DNA of 52,660 nt. Origin: an uncultured Bacteroidota bacterium. GTDB lineage: Bacteria > Bacteroidota > Bacteroidia > B-17B0 > Aurantibacillaceae. Numbering within the stretch: the first letter of the stretch is position 1; the number at the start of each line of letters is the position of its first letter. Below, piece after piece: positions 13,537 through 41,715 of the stretch. A program made the translations under genes and the position numbers. The stretch lies in the NCBI GenBank assembly GCA_903834765.1, contig CAILKE010000074.1, forward strand, positions 1 through 52,660. The letters run 5' to 3'. The notes under the pieces are model-generated. The model made no database searches and was not told the origin of the DNA. It saw only the letters and a list, made by a program, of their open reading frames with translations.

Positions 13537-14097
13537 TTACTTCTTAGGTAACTTATAACCTATTTTTTTTCGCGGTTTAATTGTGCTTTGTCGCGATTCT
13601 TTTTTATCTGTTAATTCATCCATGTACTGAAAAACAACTTCAATATTTTTAGTGTTATTATCTGTTTTCTTCTCTAACTTTTCAATGGCTAAACGTATTT
13701 CGTTGTTATCCATCAACATTTGCCTAATGCGCGTAAAAATTCTCATTATTTGAATATTAACTTGAATAGCTTTAGCACTACTTAAAACAGATGAAAGCAT
13801 TGCTACTCCTTGCTCTGTGAAAGCGTAGGGCAAATATTTAATATTTTCACCTTGTTTCAAGGTGCCAATTTGGCACCTTGAAAATTCCACCTCATCTTTG
13901 GTCAGTTCTATCATAAAGTCATCAGGAAACCGTTCTATATTTCGTTTCACTTGTCTTTTTAATTGTTTCGTTTCTACCTGATATAGCTCTGCTAAATCCC
14001 TATCTAACATTACTTTTTGATTACGAATCATGTAAATTTTATTCATCACCACCTCATCAATAATCGCCACTGAATTTTCTGCTTTTACCATATACAC
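13537..14097 (-). CDS. ORF6N-domain DNA-binding protein
   Basis: A 186-residue protein with an N-terminal ORF6N domain (about 18-105). Recognisable features are IYMIRNQKVMLDRDLAELYQV, broken here as IYMIRNQKVML then DRDLAELYQVE, RFPDDFMIELTKDE, and YLPYAFTEQGVAMLSSVL. This domain is shared by phage antirepressor-like proteins and many chromosomal Bacteroidota orphans of unknown role. The C-terminus is a short coiled-coil-like segment and a Lys/Arg-rich tail. The gene ends 3 nt from the convergent end of priA. No integrase or other phage gene is near, so it looks like a domesticated or orphan gene. ATG at 14097 is taken as the start; a second Met two codons on is equally possible. Confidence 0.85.
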   Translation of the reverse strand: MYMVKAENSVAIIDEVVMNKIYMIRNQKVMLDRDLAELYQVETKQLKRQVKRNIERFPDDFMIELTKDEVEFSRCQIGTLKQGENIKYLPYAFTEQGVAMLSSVLSSAKAIQVNIQIMRIFTRIRQMLMDNNEIRLAIEKLEKKTDNNTKNIEVVFQYMDELTDKKESRQSTIKPRKKIGYKLPKK

Positions 14098-14235: not shown

Positions 14236-16182
14236 TTAATCTTGTAACTCCAACCAACGCATAGTTTTATCGTCGATTGAATTTGATACGGTGTTAAATT
14301 CTAAAGATGTTTTTTGTATTTCTCCAGCATCTGTTATACCGCCCGCTAATAGGTCTTCTAACTCTGCTTTACGTTTTTCTAATTGGGCCAAATCAATTTC
14401 AATCGCTTCTAATTCTTTTTGTTCCTTAAACGATAATTTCTTTTTTTGAATTGTTTGACTGTTCTCATCCCGATAGCTATCGGGATCGCTCGAACTGACA
14501 ACAACTTGATTTTCGCTAATCTTATTTTTTTCTTCGTTATCAGAACCTCCAATTTGCGGCGCACTTATATCATCGTCATCTTCTCTATCATACACCCACT
14601 GACGGTAATCAGTGTAATTACCAGGAAAATCTTTTACTACTCCGTTGCCTTCAAAAGCAAAGACGTGATCAACTAATCTATCTAAAAAATAACGATCATG
14701 CGATACAATCAATACACAACCTTGAAAGTCTAATAAAAATTGTTCTAAGGTTTGTAAAGTCACAATGTCTAAATCATTGGTAGGCTCATCTAATATTAAA
14801 AAGTTAGGATTACGCACAAGCACTGTTAGTAAGTATAAACGGCGTTTTTCGCCACCACTTAATTTACTCACATGTCCGTATTGTACCTCGGGCGCAAAAT
14901 TAAATCTCGTAAGTAAAGCTGAAGCGCTCAGCGACGAACCATTAGCTAAAGGAATAAATTCAGCTATATCTTTCACTACTTCAATTACGCGTTTATCATC
15001 TGCTACTTTAATGCCTTGCTGAGAATAATACCCAAACACAATCGTATCACCCACCGAAACCTTACCTGCATCAGGTGGCTCAATGCCTTGCAGCATGTTA
15101 ATGAAGGTGCTTTTGCCAATACCGTTAGGCCCTACAACGCCTATTTTTTCGCCTTTAATAAAAGTATACGAAAATGGATTTAATATTTTTTTATCGCCGT
15201 ATGCTTTTTGTAATTTATGTACTTCAATAATTTTGCTACCAATACGCTCTACTTTGACAGATAATTCTATTTTTTTATCCATACTTTTTTTACGAGCATT
15301 TTTTTCAACATCTACAAATGCATCTACGCGTGATTTTGATTTCACAGTTCGTGCGCGTGGCTGTTTGCGCACCCACTCTAGTTCTCGGCGATATAAGTTT
15401 TTTGCTTTTTCTAATTCAGACGCTTCCATCATCATACGCTCTGCCTTCTTTTCCATGTAATACGCAAAGTTACCTCTGTATTCGTACAATTGATGATCAT
15501 CAATTTCAATAATTTTACTGCAGACTTCATCTAAAAAATAACGATCATGCGTTACTAATAAGATACTTTTTTTATAGCTTCTCAAATAATCTTCAAGCCA
15601 CTCTATCACCGTCACATCAAGGTGATTAGTAGGCTCATCCATAATCAATAAATCGGGTTCATTTAAAATTACTTGCGCTAAGGCCAATCGTTTTTTTTGA
15701 CCGCCACTTAGTGTATTTACTTTCTGTGTTAAATCATTCAATCCTAAATTAGAGCATACCAACATGATTTGTGTTTCCACATTCCATGCTTCTAAATCAT
15801 TCATTTTATTGGTTAATACATCCAATTGATTTTCTGTTTTATCGGTTGGATTAGCATAATGTGACTCTACTAAATGCTTATAATCAATCGCGGTTTTTAC
15901 CATCTCGCTATCACCCGCATAAATTGCTTCTTCAATGGTGTGATTTTCGTTAAGATTTGGTTCCTGACTTAAAAACGAAATGCGTAACTCTTTACGAAAC
16001 GCTACATCGCCACTATCTGGGATTTCGATACCTTGAAGGATTTTAAATAAGGTTGATTTACCTGAGCCGTTTTTAGCAATAAGTGCTACTTTATCGCCGT
16101 AGTTAATTCCAAAATTGATATTTTTAAAAAGGACTTTATCGCCAAAACTTTTACTTAATTGATTTACTGAGAGAAGATTCAT
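14236..16182 (-). CDS. ABC-F family ATPase (Uup/EttA-like)
   Basis: A 648-residue soluble protein with two ABC cassettes and no membrane segments, typical of ABC-F ribosome-associated ATPases that relieve translation problems. Cassette 1 (about 1-240) has NGSGKST, LSGGQKKRLAL and LLIMDEPTNHLD. The linker (about 245-310) is charged and contains the QPRART-type P-site tRNA-interaction region (VRKQPRARTVKSKSRVDAF). Cassette 2 (about 318-530) has GPNGIGKST, LSGGEKRRLYL and FLILDEPTNDLD. The acidic, Ser-rich linker at about 540-580 includes a peptide encoded by a palindromic DNA repeat (14461-14495). The C-terminal 70 residues form a coiled coil, as in Uup. Naming it Uup is plausible but not certain. 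Confidence 0.93.
   Translation of the reverse strand: MNLLSVNQLSKSFGDKVLFKNINFGINYGDKVALIAKNGSGKSTLFKILQGIEIPDSGDVAFRKELRISFLSQEPNLNENHTIEEAIYAGDSEMVKTAIDYKHLVESHYANPTDKTENQLDVLTNKMNDLEAWNVETQIMLVCSNLGLNDLTQKVNTLSGGQKKRLALAQVILNEPDLLIMDEPTNHLDVTVIEWLEDYLRSYKKSILLVTHDRYFLDEVCSKIIEIDDHQLYEYRGNFAYYMEKKAERMMMEASELEKAKNLYRRELEWVRKQPRARTVKSKSRVDAFVDVEKNARKKSMDKKIELSVKVERIGSKIIEVHKLQKAYGDKKILNPFSYTFIKGEKIGVVGPNGIGKSTFINMLQGIEPPDAGKVSVGDTIVFGYYSQQGIKVADDKRVIEVVKDIAEFIPLANGSSLSASALLTRFNFAPEVQYGHVSKLSGGEKRRLYLLTVLVRNPNFLILDEPTNDLDIVTLQTLEQFLLDFQGCVLIVSHDRYFLDRLVDHVFAFEGNGVVKDFPGNYTDYRQWVYDREDDDDISAPQIGGSDNEEKNKISENQVVVSSSDPDSYRDENSQTIQKKKLSFKEQKELEAIEIDLAQLEKRKAELEDLLAGGITDAGEIQKTSLEFNTVSNSIDDKTMRWLELQD
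14461..14495. repeat. Palindromic repeat inside the ABC-F coding region
   Basis: ATCCCGATAG followed directly by its exact complement CTATCGGGAT gives a 20-bp perfect palindrome at 14467-14486. Outer bases GTTC (14461-14464) and GAAC (14492-14495) extend it imperfectly. It is in frame with the gene and encodes DPDSYRDE in a disordered acidic linker, keeping the reading frame open. Confidence 0.75.
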
Positions 16183-16274
16183 TTATTTGTTTTTATTAGT
16201 ATTAAATAGTTAGATGTAAGTATTGAGAAACGATATTTTTAATTATCAAATCATCAAATGGACTTTTTATCAAA

Positions 16275-17078
16275 TTAATTCTTTAAGTTTTTTTCGATAA
16301 GATACCGCAACTTATCCTTTGTTAAATTTGAATTGATTTCACCATTAACCGTAAGCGATACAGCGCCTGTTTGTTCTGACACCGTAATTGCAATAGCGTC
16401 TGTTGTTTCTGTGATACCAACTGCCGCACGATGACGCATCCCGAAGTTAGACGGAAAATTTTCTTTCTCCGTAACAGGTAATACACAGCGAGCAGCAACA
16501 ATACGATTATCTTTAATGATTACTGCTCCATCGTGCATCGGGCTATTTTTATAGAAAATATTTTCAAGCATTCTGTCCGTTAATGAAGAATCTATAGGTT
16601 CTCCGGTGTTTACATAAAATTTTAGATCCGATTTTTTAGAAATGATAATTAAAGCGCCCGTCTTCGTTTCACTCATCACAAAGCAAGCGTTGATAATAGC
16701 GTCTGCATCTATCATAAATTTAGACGAAGTATTGACATCTGACGAAAAATTAAATAATGTTTTCCAATTCTTGTTTTTCAAAAACTCATTTGATCCTATA
16801 TACAATAAAAATTTACGAATCTCTTGCTGAAAAACCACCATAATGGCTATAACACCTACATTGATGAATTTTCCTAAAATAGAACCCAGCAACTTCAATT
16901 CAAAGGCACGCACCACAATCCATACAACGTAAATCAGCGCTAAGCCAATAAATACATTAACAGCAGCCGTACCATTTACCATTTTATAAAGCTGATAAAG
17001 AATGATTGCTACCAGCAATATATCTACCACGTCGGCAATTCCGAAATTAATAAATAAAATATGTAAGGATGTTAACAA
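16275..17078 (-). CDS. cdaA: Diadenylate cyclase, CdaA type
   Basis: A 267-residue membrane enzyme that makes cyclic di-AMP from two ATP. Three hydrophobic segments (about 10-85) anchor a cytoplasmic DisA_N domain (about 105-255). The catalytic motifs are visible: DGA in MHDGAVIIKD near residue 183 and RHR in FGMRHRAAVGI near residue 213. Length and plan are those of CdaA. The start is a TTG at 17078; no in-frame ATG lies between it and the upstream stop, and the minus-strand box TATCTTTA (17082-17089) lies so close that the mRNA may be leaderless. In other Bacteroidota cdaA often follows folP; here the upstream gap holds no such gene. Confidence 0.93.
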   Translation of the reverse strand: MLTSLHILFINFGIADVVDILLVAIILYQLYKMVNGTAAVNVFIGLALIYVVWIVVRAFELKLLGSILGKFINVGVIAIMVVFQQEIRKFLLYIGSNEFLKNKNWKTLFNFSSDVNTSSKFMIDADAIINACFVMSETKTGALIIISKKSDLKFYVNTGEPIDSSLTDRMLENIFYKNSPMHDGAVIIKDNRIVAARCVLPVTEKENFPSNFGMRHRAAVGITETTDAIAITVSEQTGAVSLTVNGEINSNLTKDKLRYLIEKNLKN

Positions 17079-17337
17079 GCCTATAAAGATAAGGGTTTAT
17101 GTGGTATTACATATTTTGATTTAACAATATTTTTGGATGTAACTACAATATACAACAAGGCAAAGATTAGTCAGTCATAATAAGCCGATATACTAAAATT
17201 AATAGGGGTTTGCAGGCTTTTCAAATAGGAACTTTACCGGCAAAGCGAAAAGAAAATTTTGGTATAAAGTTTCAACAAAGCCTTTTATAAGTAAAAAGAA
17301 TGTATATTTTTGCGTATACATCAATTAAAACAACTGT
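17079..17337. promoter_or_regulatory. Divergent promoter region, cdaA / acyltransferase operon
   Basis: A 259-base gap with no recognisable gene. On the minus strand TATCTTTA (17082-17089) sits 3 nt before the TTG start of cdaA. On the plus strand TATTTTTG (17305-17312) precedes the acyltransferase ATG by 25 nt. No RNA structure stands out in the middle. Confidence 0.45.
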
Positions 17338-18462
17338 ATGATAACGATTGAAAAAATAATTTTTCCTCATAAAATAACTGAATTCATTGACTTTCCGCAC
17401 GATTTATATAAAAACGATCCCATGTATGTTCCTGAAATATTTTTAGGACAAAAAGATTTATTAAACCCAAAAAAACATCCCTTTTTTGAGCACTCAAAAC
17501 TAGATATGTTCTTGGCATATAAAGACAAAAAAATTGTTGGGCGTATTGCTGCAATTCGTAACAATAACCATATTAAATTTACGGGTATACAAGAAGGCTT
17601 CTTTGGTTTTTTTGAGTGCATCGAAGATTTTGAAGTGGCAAAAAAATTATTTGATGCGGCCATGGACTGGATGAAACAAGAAAAACTAACAGGTATAGTT
17701 GGTCCTACTAATTTTTCTACCAACGAGCCCTTTGGCATGTTAATAGATGGTTTTGATATGCCCGCCATGATGAGTACAACCTATAACAAACAGTATTATG
17801 ATGCATTTTGCAAGCAATATGGTTTTGTGAAAAAAGTAGATTTTTACGCTTACATGATTCGCCCAGAAAGCGTTTCAGAAAAAGCAGTAAAATTATCAGA
17901 TGCCTTTGAATCACGCTTGAAAACGAAAGGCATTACAATTCGTCCCATCTCTATGAAAAACTATGAGAAGGAATCAGAGAACGCTAGCTCTGTATATAAT
18001 GCGGCCTGGGATAAAAACCTTGGATTTGTGCCGATGACACATAATGAATTTATGCACCTAACTAAGGAAATGAAAATGATTGTTGATCCTAATTTATGCT
18101 TAGTGGCAGAGCACGAAGGTAAAATGGTAGGCTTTGCCTTTGCTTTGCCTAATATCAATCAACTCCTTATTAAAATTAAACGAGGAAGATTATTACCCTT
18201 CGGTATTTTCAGATTATTATTTCAGCGAAAAAAAATAAATACCTTGCGCGTGGTTGTTTTAGGAGTAATTGAGGGGTATCGCAAATTAGGTATAGAAGCC
18301 ATTTTTTATTCTAAAATTATTACCAATGCTAAAGCCAGAAATATGCAATATGCAGAAGCATCGCTTATTTTAGAAACCAATGAAATGATGAATCAAGGGC
18401 TTAAAAACATTAATGCCGAAGTGTATAAAACATCACGCTTATATGAAATGGCTGTGAAATAA
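17338..18462 (+). CDS. GNAT-superfamily acyltransferase; candidate bacterial ceramide synthase-like protein
   Basis: A 374-residue soluble protein of the GNAT fold, about twice the size of a simple acetyltransferase. The N-terminal half has LYKNDPMYVPEIF, HPFFEHSKLDMFLA, VGRIAAIRNNNH and a FGFFECIEDFEVAKKLFDAA stretch. Next is GIVGPTNFSTNEPFGMLIDGF (split here as GIVGPTNFSTN then EPFGMLIDGF). The C-terminal half holds a second GNAT-like core (VLGVIEGYRKLGIEA). From memory, this overall plan is shared with YghO-like proteins and the GNAT-type ceramide synthase (bCerS) of Caulobacter; that match was not tested. It is the first gene of a tight three-gene operon with a PAP2/AUR1-like enzyme 10 nt downstream, which fits lipid N-acylation. 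The activity is inference; the GNAT superfamily call is firmer. Confidence 0.8.
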   Translation: MITIEKIIFPHKITEFIDFPHDLYKNDPMYVPEIFLGQKDLLNPKKHPFFEHSKLDMFLAYKDKKIVGRIAAIRNNNHIKFTGIQEGFFGFFECIEDFEVAKKLFDAAMDWMKQEKLTGIVGPTNFSTNEPFGMLIDGFDMPAMMSTTYNKQYYDAFCKQYGFVKKVDFYAYMIRPESVSEKAVKLSDAFESRLKTKGITIRPISMKNYEKESENASSVYNAAWDKNLGFVPMTHNEFMHLTKEMKMIVDPNLCLVAEHEGKMVGFAFALPNINQLLIKIKRGRLLPFGIFRLLFQRKKINTLRVVVLGVIEGYRKLGIEAIFYSKIITNAKARNMQYAEASLILETNEMMNQGLKNINAEVYKTSRLYEMAVK

Positions 18463-18472
18463 AGCCTACAAA

Positions 18473-19393
18473 ATGTCATCTCAAAAATCTGCACTTGATG
18501 CAAACACTAAAAAAACAAACTTTCATCTTTTAAAGGCCTTAACGCCTTTAGATATCGTGACGATTTTTTACATTATTATATCAACGTTATACATGTGTAT
18601 TGGCGCATCTAAATTACAGGATATAACATTTCACATCCTTGTGAGAATGGCTATTTTGGGACTCATTGGGTTACTTGTTTTTTTAAACCATAAATACTCA
18701 AATAGTTTTATGTCGTTTTTAAAAAATTTATACCCTCTTATTTTTATTAGTTTTTTTTATACAGAAACAAGTTACTTAAAAAATATTTTAATAGGTAACA
18801 ACCTTGATGCGCAAGTCGCTCATTTAGAGTCTTATTTATGGGGCTGTCAACCGAGTTTAATATTCGCTCAAAAGATGCCACAAGCTTGGTTTTGTGAGCT
18901 GATGAATATTTGTTATTTCTCTTATTATCTTATTACTTCTGGTGTTTGCTTAGCTATTTATTTTAAAAATAGAGCCGAATCTTTCGAAAGTGTATTTATT
19001 ATCATCTGCTCCTTTTACTTGTATTACATTGTATTTGCATTGATTCCAGTAGCAGGTCCTCAATTTTTTTTCGAGTATACAGAAGCAGAGCCTCCCTATC
19101 TTTTTGGAAAAATAATGCATTATATTTTAATTAATGCCGAAGAGCCAACTGGTGCATTTCCGAGCTCACACGTAGGCGTTTCATTGATTTTAAGTTACGT
19201 GGCATTTAAGCATCAAAAATTGGTGTTTGTTATTAGTTTACCATTTGTGATAGGCATTTGCTTTGCAACCGTTTATTTAAAAGCTCATTATTTAGTAGAT
19301 GTAATTGGAGCATTTATAAGCGTTCCTATTTTTATAGCCATTAGTAAGTTTTTTTATCAAAAGCTATTACCTTTATCAAAAACCAGTCTTTAA
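18473..19393 (+). CDS. PAP2-superfamily membrane phosphotransferase/phosphatase (AUR1-like)
   Basis: A 306-residue polytopic inner-membrane protein with about six to seven hydrophobic helices. PAP2 catalytic motifs are present in the C-terminal half: FPSSHVGVSL (motif C2, His about 231) and LKAHYLVDVIGA (motif C3, with the His-x3-Asp pair). Motif C1 is not clear. The spacing, and the glycine/proline-rich PVAGPQFFFEY just before C2, recall AUR1/inositol-phosphoceramide-synthase-like PAP2 enzymes, which transfer a phospho-headgroup to ceramide. It lies 10 nt after the acyltransferase and 39 nt before the BtrH-like gene, so all three are probably one transcript. An alternative is a lipid phosphate or undecaprenyl-diphosphate phosphatase. 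Confidence 0.83.
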   Translation: MSSQKSALDANTKKTNFHLLKALTPLDIVTIFYIIISTLYMCIGASKLQDITFHILVRMAILGLIGLLVFLNHKYSNSFMSFLKNLYPLIFISFFYTETSYLKNILIGNNLDAQVAHLESYLWGCQPSLIFAQKMPQAWFCELMNICYFSYYLITSGVCLAIYFKNRAESFESVFIIICSFYLYYIVFALIPVAGPQFFFEYTEAEPPYLFGKIMHYILINAEEPTGAFPSSHVGVSLILSYVAFKHQKLVFVISLPFVIGICFATVYLKAHYLVDVIGAFISVPIFIAISKFFYQKLLPLSKTSL

Positions 19394-19432
19394 GATCAGC
19401 TTAAAAAATATTTTTTTCAACTCTTACATTAC

Positions 19433-20446
19433 ATGAATTCTACGATACCATATACACATTTACAAACTGCACATTGCGAAAATGGCGTTTCTACGGGCTT
19501 ATTAAGGCATCATGGCTTAGATTTTATGACCGAGCCTTTAATATTTGGTTTAGGCTCAGGAATTTTTTACATTCATATTCCTTTTTTAATGGTGAATAAT
19601 GGTCCTGCCATTTCATACCGAAGTATGCCGGGATGGATATTTAGCAGAGCTAGTAAATTATTAGGTGTAACCGTTAATCGTAAAAAATTTAGCAAAGAAA
19701 AAGATGCTATTGAATATCTTGATAAAGAATTAAGCAAAGGCAATCCTGTTGGTTGCCAAGTGGGCGTTTACAACCTTCCTTATTTTCCGCCTGAATATCG
19801 TTTTCATTTTAATGCACACAATTTAGTTGTCTACGGAAAAGAAAATGGTAATTATTTAGTAAGTGATCCTGTTATGGAAACGGTTACTAGGCTGACAGAA
19901 GCCGATATGTTGAAAGTTCGCTTTGCAAAAGGCGCCTTAGCGCCAAAGGGCCATGTATATTATCCTGAAAATGTAAAATCTGTAAGCAAAGAACATCTGC
20001 AAAAAGTGATTCCAAAAGCTATCAAACGTACTTCTTTTGAAATGCTTCATTTACCTGGCGCAATCTGCGGTGTTGAAGGCATTAAATATACCGCCAAACA
20101 AATCAGACAATGGCGCGAAAAATTAGGACCTCGTAAAGCCGCTCTATACCTTGGACAAATAGTGCGTATGCAAGAAGAAATAGGAACCGGCGGTGGTGGT
20201 TTCCGTTTTTTATATGCTGCCTTTTTAGAACAAGCCAGTAATTATATTGCTAACGATGAGCTTTTAAAAATATCAGATGAGTTTACAAAGGCAGGTGATA
20301 TGTGGCGTGCAAGTGCTGTAAATATGGGCCGTATCTTTAAAGGACGATTGAATGAACAAAAAGATTTTGAAGAAAGTGCAAATATACTAGATGAAATTGC
20401 AGAAATAGAAAGACAAGCATTTAAACGTTTACGTAAAATATTGTAA
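19433..20446 (+). CDS. BtrH N-terminal-domain / DUF4872 protein
   Basis: A 337-residue soluble protein with a BtrH_N domain (about 10-170) and a helical DUF4872-type C-terminal part. BtrH in butirosin biosynthesis is an acyltransferase on a papain/C39-like fold. The corresponding catalytic-type residues are visible here: Cys15 in AHCENGVSTGLLRHHG, a conserved GLGSGIFYIHIP segment, then His in NAHNLVVYG and Asp in LVSDPV (about 130-146). In Bacteroidota such genes are often placed with lipid or pigment biosynthesis genes. Here it closes an operon with a GNAT-type acyltransferase and a PAP2-type enzyme, suggesting that it acylates or de-acylates the same lipid. The substrate is unknown. Confidence 0.85.
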   Translation: MNSTIPYTHLQTAHCENGVSTGLLRHHGLDFMTEPLIFGLGSGIFYIHIPFLMVNNGPAISYRSMPGWIFSRASKLLGVTVNRKKFSKEKDAIEYLDKELSKGNPVGCQVGVYNLPYFPPEYRFHFNAHNLVVYGKENGNYLVSDPVMETVTRLTEADMLKVRFAKGALAPKGHVYYPENVKSVSKEHLQKVIPKAIKRTSFEMLHLPGAICGVEGIKYTAKQIRQWREKLGPRKAALYLGQIVRMQEEIGTGGGGFRFLYAAFLEQASNYIANDELLKISDEFTKAGDMWRASAVNMGRIFKGRLNEQKDFEESANILDEIAEIERQAFKRLRKIL

Positions 20447-22748: not shown

Positions 22749-23732
22749 TTGTATAAACTAGAAGGCCTCAATAACAATCAAATTAATTACATCAACATTG
22801 GGTTAATGATTGTATCTGCCATACTAGCATTCATTTTACCATTCGAGCTTTTTCTGTTTTCTTACGCCGTTCTTGGACCCTTGCATTACCTTACCGAAAT
22901 CGGATGGTTGCACAAAAAAAATTATTACGCTAAAGGGAAATACGATTTTATATTTTTAAGTGTATTATGTGCTTTAGTATTTTACTTTTCATTCGTAAAA
23001 CCTACTACATCAAATACAAAAATTCCTCATATCATATTTTATGGCCTACTAATCTCCTTTATTTTTGTGTTTATAAAAGACAATCTTTATCGAATTGCTT
23101 TAGCATTATTAATACTTATTGGCTTATATATATCGAATGTTGGCGAAACTTATTTTATGTGGGTAGGCGTTTTCTTACCTACTATTATTCATGTATTTGT
23201 GTTTACCTGGGCATTTATGCTGTTTGGCGTATTAAAAAATAAATCTTTTTCTGGGTATTTATCTATTGTAGTTCTACTGATCTGCGCCCTTTCATTTTTC
23301 TTTATTAAAGCGCCATCTCTTCAATATGAGGTTTCAGAATATGTTGGAAAAAGCTATGATTTGTTCAGTTTATTAAATAAATATATGATTCATTTTTTTG
23401 GACTATCAACCACAACTAATTCATCTCAATCTATTATTTACGAATCAAACGCTGGGTTTATAGTCATGCGTTTTATTGCTTTTGCATATACGTATCATTA
23501 CCTGAATTGGTTTTCAAAAACCTCTGTCATCCAATGGCACAAAGTGCCAAAAAGAACCCTCATTATCACCTTGTTTTTATGGATTTTTTCCGTAACTCTA
23601 TATCTTTACGATTATAAAACTGGCCTTAAAGCACTCTATTTTTTAAGCTTTTTACATGTGTTTTTGGAGTTTCCGTTAAATATTACATCTTTTCAAGGGA
23701 TCATCAAATCGATTGTGCCTGCCAAAAAATAA
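22749..23732 (+). CDS. Conserved integral membrane protein of unknown function
   Basis: A 327-residue protein with about eight to nine hydrophobic helices. I do not recognise its function. Likely conserved spots are GPLHYLTEIGWLHKKNY (about 43-59), YTYHYLNWFSKTSVIQWHK (about 249-267) and FLHVFLEFPLN near the end, which put His, Glu and Trp at membrane interfaces. That layout resembles metal-dependent membrane oxidases such as Brp/Blh carotene dioxygenases, but the similarity is only of pattern. The start is a TTG at 22749; the only other choice is ATG at 22806, which would cut the first helix. The -7 box at 22710 favours TTG. Confidence 0.75.
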   Translation: MYKLEGLNNNQINYINIGLMIVSAILAFILPFELFLFSYAVLGPLHYLTEIGWLHKKNYYAKGKYDFIFLSVLCALVFYFSFVKPTTSNTKIPHIIFYGLLISFIFVFIKDNLYRIALALLILIGLYISNVGETYFMWVGVFLPTIIHVFVFTWAFMLFGVLKNKSFSGYLSIVVLLICALSFFFIKAPSLQYEVSEYVGKSYDLFSLLNKYMIHFFGLSTTTNSSQSIIYESNAGFIVMRFIAFAYTYHYLNWFSKTSVIQWHKVPKRTLIITLFLWIFSVTLYLYDYKTGLKALYFLSFLHVFLEFPLNITSFQGIIKSIVPAKK

Positions 23733-38438: not shown

Positions 38439-39713
38439 ATGAAGTTAGTATACAAAACGATACTTATAAATACATTTGTTTCTATCTCTATATTATTTAT
38501 AGGGGAGTGGTCGCTGTATACCTTTTTAAAAAATAAACTTGATCAAGAGGCTATAGAGCATTTGAAAGAAGAGAGGGAAATAATGCTCAAAAAATTAGAC
38601 AATGGCATTAATATAGATTTGTTAAAAAACAACATTGGTGATGAAATAAACGTTTTAGAAACTGCATCAGTTATTTATCTTTCACCAACATTTAGAGATA
38701 CGATTATCTTAGAAGAGCTTGAAAACGGTGAAGATGAAGCAGAAATATTTTTGGCTAAAAAAATAATTTTTGATACTAAGCAACAATCAAAAAATTATCG
38801 AATATCTATAATAAAATCTACTGATGAAGACGAGGATTTTGGGAAAAGCATTCAAATTACACTCATATTATCAGGGTTAATAATGGTGTTGGTATTAATA
38901 AGTATTAACGTATTAGTTTACAACAAATTGTTTTCACCTGTACTCAAACTTATTTCAGACATGGGTAATTTTTCTATACAAAAATTACAAAAAATAAATG
39001 CACCAAAGACGAGTACATTAGAATTTCAAAAACTTGGTATGATTATCAGTAATATGTCTCAAAAAAATATTAAAGATTACATCTTAATGAAAGAATTTAC
39101 TGAAAATATGGCCCATGAAATACAAACGCCAATCGCAGTCATTAGTAGTAAAATTGAGCAGTGTATGCAGGACAAGAATTTAACAGAAGAACAATCTCAA
39201 TTGTTAGGAGAGGCTAATAAGGCACTTAACAAATTATTTAATTTAAATAAAGGTTTATCGCTTTTAAGCAAGTTAGATAATAAGCAATACATATCTAGCC
39301 AGCCAATTAACATTAATGCTTTAATTAAAGAACGATTAAGTTATTTTTCTGATTTTATTGAAGATAAAAACATAGTCATTTCAGAAAATTATACTAGCGA
39401 TATCGTTGTTAATATGGATATATCACTTGCTGAAATATTGCTGGATAACATTTTTAAAAATTCCATTAAGCATAATTTTGAAAATGGAAAAATTACAATT
39501 GCAACAGAACCAAACGCTATTATCATTTCCAACACTGGAGATGAGCCACTTGTGTCTACCGAACAATTTTTTAATAGATTTTACAGCAAAAACACAAACG
39601 AATCGCTTGGCTTAGGGCTTTCGATTATAAAGAAAATTATTGACTATTATAATTTCAAAATTACTTATGTATACTTAAATGGATATCATCAAATTACTAT
39701 TCATTTTACCTAA
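38439..39713 (+). CDS. Sensor histidine kinase (first of two tandem pairs)
   Basis: A 424-residue membrane kinase. Two hydrophobic helices (about 7-28 and 148-168) bracket a periplasmic sensor region rich in acidic residues. The phospho-acceptor is His226 in NMAHEIQTPIAVIS. The ATPase domain shows LLDNIFKNSIKHN (N box) and LGLGLSIIKKII (G2 box); the G1 box is reduced to ISNTGDEP. No standard HAMP domain is evident. It pairs with the regulator 11 nt upstream. Signal unknown. Confidence 0.92.
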   Translation: MKLVYKTILINTFVSISILFIGEWSLYTFLKNKLDQEAIEHLKEEREIMLKKLDNGINIDLLKNNIGDEINVLETASVIYLSPTFRDTIILEELENGEDEAEIFLAKKIIFDTKQQSKNYRISIIKSTDEDEDFGKSIQITLILSGLIMVLVLISINVLVYNKLFSPVLKLISDMGNFSIQKLQKINAPKTSTLEFQKLGMIISNMSQKNIKDYILMKEFTENMAHEIQTPIAVISSKIEQCMQDKNLTEEQSQLLGEANKALNKLFNLNKGLSLLSKLDNKQYISSQPININALIKERLSYFSDFIEDKNIVISENYTSDIVVNMDISLAEILLDNIFKNSIKHNFENGKITIATEPNAIIISNTGDEPLVSTEQFFNRFYSKNTNESLGLGLSIIKKIIDYYNFKITYVYLNGYHQITIHFT

Positions 39714-40443: not shown

Positions 40444-41715
40444 ATGAAACTCCTTACTAAAACAAACACCTATACATCTATTACAACGGTATTGCTTTTT
40501 GTAATTGGAATGGTTGTAGTATATAGAGTTATTTTAGTAAAACTCGATAGTGAAATCGATAAACAATTGTTATCGGCTAAAGCAAAAATAGAAGAAGGCC
40601 TAAGAAATGGAATCCCTCCAAAAGAATTTTTGAGTAATATAGGCCAAAAAATTTATATTAAAGAAGTTTATAAGCAAACACAATTTGAAAACAAGGTTGT
40701 AGAGTATATTCAAAAAAGCGCAGAGAAGATTGGCGAACATAATACTTCAGTTACTAATCGAGAACTGATGTTTCAAGTGCCCATCAATGATAAAGTATTT
40801 GAAGTAAGCGTTTCAAGCTCTATTGCTGAAGGAAAAGAAGTAGGTGAATACATCATTGGAGTTGTTGTCATTTTTTTATTGGTAATAATTTTCATATTAT
40901 TTTTGATTAATAGATATGTGTCGGCTTCTATTTTTGCGCCATTTTACGACACGCTATCCAAAATAAAAACATGGAATATCAAGAAAAACGAAACATTGGT
41001 TTTTAAGGAAACAGACATCAATGAATTTAATTTATTAAATGATACAATTAAAGATTTAACTCAACAGATAAAATCGGATTATTTGCGCCTCAAAGAATTT
41101 ACTGAAAATGTTTCTCACGAATCTCAAACGCCACTCTCTATTATTAGCAGCAAAGTAGAGCTACTGATGCAAGAAACAAACTACACTAAAAAACAAAACG
41201 AATTACTGCAACAAACCTATCAAGCTACACAACGTTTATATAAACTCAATCAAGCCTTAATTTTATTATCTCGCATTGAAAACAAACAGTTTATTGAAAC
41301 TAATGAGGTTCATTTAAACACTGCTATTGATGAAAAACTTGAAGTGTTAGAAGATTTTATTGAGGCTAAAGAGATAACAATTACTAAGGAATACAATAAA
41401 AATATAACGATTGAGGTTAATCAATATTTACTCACTATATTATTAAATAATTTATTAATCAATGCTATAAAATATAATCCTGAAAAAAATGGCACTATAA
41501 AAATTACGATAGACGACAACTCCTTTAGTATTGAAAATTTAAGTACAGTTGATAAAATAAACAGAGAATATTTATTTGAGCGCTTTAATAAAACATCCAC
41601 CTCTGGCTCATTAGGAGTAGGTTTGTCTTTAATTAAAAAAATAGTGGATTTTTATAATTGGCAAATTTCATATTCGCATAAGGACAATATTCATAAATTT
41701 AAAATATTAATGTAG
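40444..41715 (+). CDS. Sensor histidine kinase (second pair)
   Basis: A 423-residue membrane kinase, paralogue of the one at 38439. Membrane helices at about 12-32 and 140-157 flank a periplasmic region. The phospho-acceptor is His225 in NVSHESQTPLSIIS. The N box is LLNNLLINAIKYN and the G2 box SLGVGLSLIKKIV. The G1 region is ISIENLST-like (here FSIENLSTVDK) and lacks its usual glycine, so ATP binding may be altered; the first kinase keeps NTG. It forms a pair with the regulator 21 nt upstream. Confidence 0.92.
   Translation: MKLLTKTNTYTSITTVLLFVIGMVVVYRVILVKLDSEIDKQLLSAKAKIEEGLRNGIPPKEFLSNIGQKIYIKEVYKQTQFENKVVEYIQKSAEKIGEHNTSVTNRELMFQVPINDKVFEVSVSSSIAEGKEVGEYIIGVVVIFLLVIIFILFLINRYVSASIFAPFYDTLSKIKTWNIKKNETLVFKETDINEFNLLNDTIKDLTQQIKSDYLRLKEFTENVSHESQTPLSIISSKVELLMQETNYTKKQNELLQQTYQATQRLYKLNQALILLSRIENKQFIETNEVHLNTAIDEKLEVLEDFIEAKEITITKEYNKNITIEVNQYLLTILLNNLLINAIKYNPEKNGTIKITIDDNSFSIENLSTVDKINREYLFERFNKTSTSGSLGVGLSLIKKIVDFYNWQISYSHKDNIHKFKILM

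Follow-up and report, generated by a model that had tools for sequence, protein, structure and literature searches.

The 52,660-nucleotide stretch analysed here (the window; contig CAILKE010000074.1 of an uncultured Bacteroidota bacterium, family Aurantibacillaceae) contains three consecutive genes, for a GNAT-fold N-acyltransferase (gene 1), an AUR1-like PAP2 membrane protein (gene 2) and a member of the BtrH-fold acyltransferase family, DarH (gene 3; Table 1). With a probability that we put at roughly 60%, the GNAT and the PAP2 protein would perform late steps of a dispersed, polyketide-fed, sphingolipid-like pathway, and gene 3 would be a displaced gene of flexirubin or dialkylresorcinol synthesis. 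The putative pathway genes lie in three places of this genome: the window and contigs C34 and C55. Its chemistry is deduced throughout from the observed gene content, homologies and co-occurrence. An earlier, sequence-only reading had placed all three genes in a single pathway; its assignments of the individual proteins are borne out below, while its inclusion of gene 3 is probably wrong.

Co-occurrence was assessed in 60 related genomes, 37 from the family and 23 from outside it. The PAP2 protein (E ≤ 1e-5) is encoded in five of them, each time with the GNAT gene adjoining. The GNAT itself (E ≤ 1e-30) is found in 20, five in the family (65-100% identity) and 15 outside (26-57%), and at these thresholds every family genome with one of the two proteins has the other as well. 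A 434-residue alpha-oxoamine synthase (AOS; E ≤ 1e-60) is present in six genomes, the five with the GNAT-PAP2 pair (86-100% identity) and one outsider, G012 (33%); a synthase of the hydroxymethylglutaryl (HMG) type (HCS; E ≤ 1e-20) is present in the identical five. Among the 37 family genomes, GNAT, PAP2, AOS and HCS are therefore in exactly the same five; the chance of two given sets of five in 37 coinciding is 2.3e-6 if genomes are taken as independent, and these five belong to two genera.

An operon in the order acyl carrier protein (ACP), short-chain dehydrogenase/reductase (SDR), AOS and SDR is kept in all five pair genomes, and in four of them (not in G224) a gene for an NF005496-family enoyl-CoA hydratase-like protein (ECH) and a second SDR lie divergently beside it. 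In genome G210, the genes for GNAT, PAP2, FabD, FabA, ketosynthase (KS), ketoreductase (KR), HCS and ECH1 follow one another on one strand, separated by -4, 75, 80, 26, 1, 98 and 248 nt. The window's genome has its set of FabD, FabA/Z-like dehydratase, KS, KR, HCS and ECH1 genes on C34 (22615-28350) and its AOS operon with the divergent genes on C55 (28461-33506). The best-matching models are PRK07117 for the ACP, fabD, PRK07103 for the KS, HMGS for the HCS, PRK07112 for ECH1 and PRK07110 for ECH2. ACP, KS, HCS, ECH1 and ECH2 kinds of protein are all present; of these five, ECH2 alone passes a model cut-off (NF005496, 'polyketide synthase', 274.7 bits against 215). G029, of another family, also has a GNAT-PAP2 pair, remote in sequence (28% and 38% identity) and with the PAP2 gene upstream (L043:344-2334); the pairing may therefore be ancient, or it may have two origins.

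The product of gene 1 aligns with E. coli YghO over 366 columns (residues 13-370 of 374) at 33% identity (pairwise E 1e-63); YghO was the reference for this comparison. It matches Pfam Acetyltransf_1 with 25.1 bits (cut-off 20.7) and no NCBIfam model at E ≤ 1; YghO and the GNATs of G210 and G029 give no Pfam domain at E ≤ 0.01. The naming of gene 1 therefore relies on its alignment with YghO, on the GNAT tree and on the gene context. A phmmer comparison with solved structures gave nothing at E ≤ 1, and a GNAT profile gave weak GNAT-fold matches only. Relatives at E ≤ 1e-5 occur in 192 of 198 genomes of a phylum-wide sample, with a single match in the window's own genome; among the GNAT matches listed, those from outside the family show 32-52% identity. 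Ten outsider neighbourhoods were read, the nine best (L033-L041) and that of G239 (L148). A gene of the serine palmitoyltransferase (SPT) type lies directly upstream of the GNAT homologue in all ten, and an epimerase-family gene (epi/CerR-like) lies downstream in five (L033-L036, L148). Two of the ten neighbouring SPTs pass the NCBIfam serine palmitoyltransferase cut-off (678.9 and 720.5 bits against 640), and the other eight were assigned by 46-63% identity to one of these two. This neighbourhood is seen in relatives only, the window itself having no SPT or epimerase gene beside the GNAT. In the GNAT tree, the window protein and four family relatives group with that of G239 (support 94/90), within the SPT-linked GNATs. 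Because of the relationship to YghO and the SPT-type gene upstream in 10/10 outsiders, gene 1 very probably encodes a ceramide-synthase-type N-acyltransferase, in agreement with the YghO/bCerS likeness noticed earlier. In the available text of PMC9386255, yghO is listed as the aca N-acyltransferase gene, together with spt, acpR, aasR and epi.

Gene 2 matches Pfam PAP2_3 (60.4 bits, cut-off 27). The PAP2 motifs C2 and C3 recognised in the sequence-only reading (C2-like PTGAFPSSHVG, C3-like TVYxKxHYxxD) are invariant across six aligned relatives, gene 2 included, and the AUR1-like character claimed for it emerges again by profile. Compared with solved structures, a profile of the six sequences finds chains of the AUR1 inositol phosphorylceramide synthase first (E 6.7e-5 and 8.6e-5), with the lipid phosphatase YodM behind (E 0.02); gene 2 alone, in phmmer, finds YodM (E 0.024) and one unrelated chain. 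A single-sequence AlphaFold model had a predicted local distance difference test score (pLDDT) of 45 and was not used. Gene 2 is probably an AUR1-like phospho-headgroup transferase, to judge from its family.

A search of the genome for SPT, suggested together with the original reading, gave a divided answer: a canonical SPT was not found, and two other enzymes of the superfamily were. The genome is rated 99.99% complete. PF00155 has 20 matches in it, of which the ten strongest were classed and the others score at most 55.5 bits; for scale, the same model gives 179 and 186 bits for two SPTs of relatives. The ten are Kbl, BioF, the unclassed 434-residue synthase, a cysteate-type enzyme and six proteins matching transaminase-type models. 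None of these ten is a canonical SPT by NF047600 (cut-off 640), on which the 434-residue synthase scores 245, Kbl 343, BioF 207 and the cysteate-type enzyme 296 bits. Assignment of the operon to a standard SPT pathway was discarded for want of such an enzyme. The cysteate-type enzyme, on contig C2 (G000:C2:4477-5736; L173:978-2237), scores 595 and 629 bits against the cysteate-C-fatty acyltransferases 28eh and 7u7h, and 236 bits against SPT. In a residue alignment, an alanine of five SPTs corresponds to Lys280 in the C2 enzyme and to a cysteine in the 434-residue synthase; a lysine in place of the SPT alanine is described as a mark of cysteate enzymes in the accessible part of PMC9304779. The C2 enzyme is thus of the cysteate fatty-acyltransferase type, which catalyses the first step of sulfonolipid synthesis. 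In a first tree of alpha-oxoamine synthases, which carried a long-branch warning, the clade of the 434-residue synthase fell outside the SPTs (86/83). A second tree, including the cysteate enzyme, left the branching order open; the placement outside the SPTs was dropped for that reason, and the separateness of the clade (100/100) was retained.

Transposing these similarities to a pathway, FabD would load malonyl units, and KS, KR, dehydratase and SDRs would build a chain on the dedicated ACP. HCS and ECH1 from C34, together with ECH2 from C55, would add a beta-methyl branch to the acyl chain. The 434-residue AOS on C55 would then join the acyl-ACP to an amino acid, replacing serine palmitoyltransferase, and the neighbouring 261-residue SDR may reduce the resulting ketone. 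N-acylation of the base by the window GNAT is the step well supported by homology and context, and addition of a phospho-headgroup by the PAP2 protein, in the fashion of AUR1, is supported by its family. More tentatively, and at a little under even odds, the whole may be an undescribed Bacteroidota pathway in which a type II HMG-synthase set, a separate AOS clade, a bCerS-type GNAT and an AUR1-like cap make a methyl-branched, phosphoceramide-like membrane lipid.

Gene 3 has a different affiliation. It matches BtrH_N (160.5 bits, cut-off 29.7) and DUF4872 (190.8 bits, cut-off 28) in Pfam, and in NCBIfam NF053550, DarH, a 'BtrH-related acyltransferase' (458.6 bits, cut-off 300), a model that nothing else in the genome matches. 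Cys15, His129 and Asp145 are invariant in 34/34 aligned DarH-family proteins. A phmmer comparison with solved structures found nothing at E ≤ 1; the predicted structure (pLDDT 87.4) matches those of AziU3/U2, CtaG and CcbD; by their titles, these entries include CtaG variants at C11, H128 and D144 and CcbD in complex with a peptidyl carrier protein (PCP). Both results uphold the BtrH fold and the Cys-His-Asp residues first proposed. DarH relatives were confirmed 340 times in named genomes, and the best 80 of the 340 were examined by tblastn. The darG gene lies directly upstream (at most 300 bp) in 77 of these 80, and GNAT, PAP2, 434-residue synthase and HCS occur in 0/80 within up to 6 kb on each side. 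Twelve of the 80 loci contain tig, all in the order tig, darB, darG, darH (L059 has an additional ORF, or open reading frame, between darB and darG). The cluster of one relative, L021, passes the NCBIfam DarB and DarG models, and gene 3 is tied to dialkylresorcinol or flexirubin synthesis because its neighbours in relatives are of the DarB/DarG type. Naming differs in Azoarcus, where the available text of PMC3949708 has the BtrH-like gene as darE and uses darH for a PilT-domain gene. Locus L113 (CP034120.1), named Glaciecola amylolytica (Gammaproteobacteria), has a dar cluster ordered as in Fluviicola records, such as L091, and is perhaps mislabelled.

In the window's genome, tig, darB and darG are on contig C43, followed by a convergent gene and without darH, which sits apart in the window. 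The darH position on C43 holds a 419-residue ORF convergent with darG (L175:2852-4111), a 348-residue part of which has no Pfam match at E ≤ 0.01 and no NCBIfam match at E ≤ 1e-20. The closest relative with the GNAT-PAP2 pair, G198, is collinear with the window over 15859-19378 at 85.5% identity and then diverges; DarH was not found in this 92% complete genome. The three genes had been expected to co-occur in relatives: GNAT and PAP2 do so, and gene 3 does not follow them. Of the five family genomes that carry the pair, three have DarH at 58% identity or more, as do 16 of the 32 that lack it, giving no sign of association (G209 and G217, among the 32, have matches of 26-27% only and were not counted). 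Gene 3 looks intact, though separated from its pathway. The darH gene has probably been relocated behind a unit made up of the GNAT and PAP2 genes, a direction of change that we infer, and would most likely still serve darB and darG in trans.

That the BtrH-like enzyme further acylates a sphingolipid made by the GNAT and the PAP2 protein, all three genes forming one pathway, is unlikely, although the genes share a strand and only 39 nt separate PAP2 from darH. The relationship of the DarH fold to AziU3/U2, CtaG and the PCP-bound CcbD would also suit a pathway with a dedicated ACP. The DarH model score far above its cut-off, the darG neighbourhood free of GNAT and PAP2, the DarH-bearing family genomes without the pair and the other sequence behind the pair in G198 all argue against it. 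A loose link between the two sets is seen in G224, where the ACP-SDR-AOS-SDR operon is directly upstream of tig, placed between it and a darA-darG-darH group about 6 kb away (L157:3793-8415, L147:8586-10898). The ORF check confirmed the coordinates, common strand and gaps (10 and 39 nt) of the three genes. The single transcript proposed from these gaps was not borne out: promoter-like matches (22 against 17.9, sd 3.7, in shuffled sequence) and terminator-like matches (3 against 2.6, sd 1.5) were not clearly above chance, and the sequence behind the pair differs in G198. No sharp step in nucleotide composition was found around the operon.

It is equally improbable, in our estimate, that the co-occurring genes make a secreted N-acylated amino-polyketide, with the PAP2 protein as a phosphatase instead of a lipid headgroup transferase. 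HMG-synthase cassettes do occur in the synthesis of trans-AT polyketides (PMC10006238, available text), and the patchy distribution, five of 37, would suit a small molecule. The GNAT, however, is of an SPT-linked lineage in the tree, the PAP2 profile favours AUR1 over YodM, and the loci read contain no modular synthase gene, a genome-wide search for one not having been made. Least likely is a role of the GNAT as N-acyltransferase in sulfonolipid (capnine) synthesis, with the C2 enzyme as its supplier: that enzyme does match 28eh and 7u7h far better than SPT, with Lys280 in the cysteate-enzyme position, and the genome has a single GNAT match, but in the family the GNAT tracks the 434-residue synthase and HCS exactly, and the adjacent AUR1-like protein would be left without a role because capnine already carries a sulfonate headgroup.

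Several observations weigh against placing the GNAT and the PAP2 protein in a polyketide-fed sphingolipid-like pathway. HCS (245 of 360 bits), KS (341 of 445) and ACP (57.8 of 79) each score below their NCBIfam cut-offs. The KS retains its active-site cysteine; textbook HMG-synthase cassettes have a KS decarboxylase in which this cysteine is replaced by serine. The 434-residue synthase has cysteine where five SPTs have alanine and the cysteate enzyme lysine, and the second synthase tree leaves the order open. The C2 enzyme could supply the GNAT instead. The five positive genomes are not independent events, all being within two genera, and in G224 the HCS gene is separate from the rest of its set. 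Of the 23 outsiders, 15 carry GNAT relatives (26-57%) without this PAP2 or HCS, the synthase being absent except in G012 (33%), so the GNAT itself is not tied to the gene set. The proposed lipid product is a prediction from genes alone.

The gene divergent from gene 1, cdaA, adjoins the GNAT-PAP2 pair in G198 too and is not part of the proposed pathway. Elsewhere in the window, 38439-39713 and 40444-41715 encode sensor histidine kinases of the PorY family (350.5 and 387.4 bits against a cut-off of 350); ahead of each gene lies an ORF of about 225 residues. An ORF6N-domain protein (13537-14097; 124.6 bits), of a family usually linked to phages, is encoded next to the PriA gene. A 327-residue ORF with a TTG start (22749-23732), upstream of an MlaD-domain gene, has no Pfam or NCBIfam match at E ≤ 1.

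Table 1. Genes and landmarks around the GNAT-PAP2 pair in the window.
Feature	Position	Strand	Remarks
Gene 1, GNAT-fold N-acyltransferase, YghO/bCerS (aca) type	17338..18462	+	ATG, 374 aa
Gene 2, AUR1-like PAP2 membrane protein	18473..19393	+	ATG, 306 aa
Gene 3, DarH, BtrH-fold acyltransferase family	19433..20446	+	ATG, 337 aa
cdaA, diadenylate cyclase, divergent neighbour and synteny anchor	16275..17078	-	TIGR00159 228 bits, cut-off 188.8
Collinearity break relative to G198	19379..19432	.	darH region of the window unmatched in G198 beyond 19378

Prediction of sphingolipid producers commonly relies on homologues of SPT, as in PMC11334938 (available text). The genome described here has a ceramide-synthase-type gene with an AUR1-like partner, together with an alternative front end, and no canonical SPT among its strong candidates; as such a genome nevertheless carries ceramide-type genes, SPT-based prediction may miss producers. 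If the proposal is true, a beta-branching gene set serves a membrane lipid, for which no description was found in the literature searched. Among the papers listed, with subscription papers mostly outside the search, none was seen to link an HMG-synthase set with genes of the ceramide type; no paper joined inositol phosphorylceramide synthase, PAP2 and Bacteroides, and none joined ceramide synthase, serine palmitoyltransferase and N-acyltransferase with Bacteroides thetaiotaomicron.

Five known systems may be compared. With dialkylresorcinol and flexirubin clusters the window shares DarH (NF053550), whose usual neighbours match the NCBIfam DarB and DarG models, but its darH is cut off from darB and darG, a location that is usual rather than defining. 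The beta-branching cassette of the B. subtilis pksX cluster consists of AcpK, PksC and PksF-I, and models of the PRK07117, PRK07103, PRK07112 and PRK07110 type presumably stand for the pksX proteins. ACP, FabD, KS, HCS, ECH1 and ECH2 are all present here as in that cassette; the differences are that the KS keeps its cysteine, that the genes are linked to AOS and ceramide-synthase-type genes and that the loci read contain no modular polyketide synthase (PKS).

The canonical bacterial ceramide pathway of Caulobacter and E. coli comprises Spt, bCerS (aca, YghO) and CerR (epi), a set described in the available texts of PMC11087976 and PMC11334938. The likeness to it lies in the YghO-family GNAT, which in relatives stands behind SPT and in 5/10 also before an epimerase-family gene; here an atypical AOS, an ACP, an HMG-synthase set and an AUR1-like protein are found instead, without a canonical SPT among the ten strong matches. 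Specialised ACPs for SPT have been described in the AcpR/AasR/SPT system of Rhodobacteria (PMC9386255, available text), which likewise has a dedicated ACP gene beside a gene of the SPT superfamily. Here a chain-building set is present, and no acyl-ACP synthetase of the AasR type was noticed in the C55 and C34 loci, where no model search was made for it. PKS-derived sphingolipids have been described for SgaAB(C) of Pseudomonas fluorescens MYb115, which, as far as the available text of PMC12134224 goes, shares polyketide-type chain assembly, an alpha-oxoamine synthase and an SDR proposed as ketone reductase. A type I PKS of the SgaA kind was absent from the loci read, no whole-genome search having been made. 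SgaA is an iterative type I PKS, whereas the genes described here encode discrete enzymes with an HMG-synthase set, accompanied by a GNAT and an AUR1-like protein.

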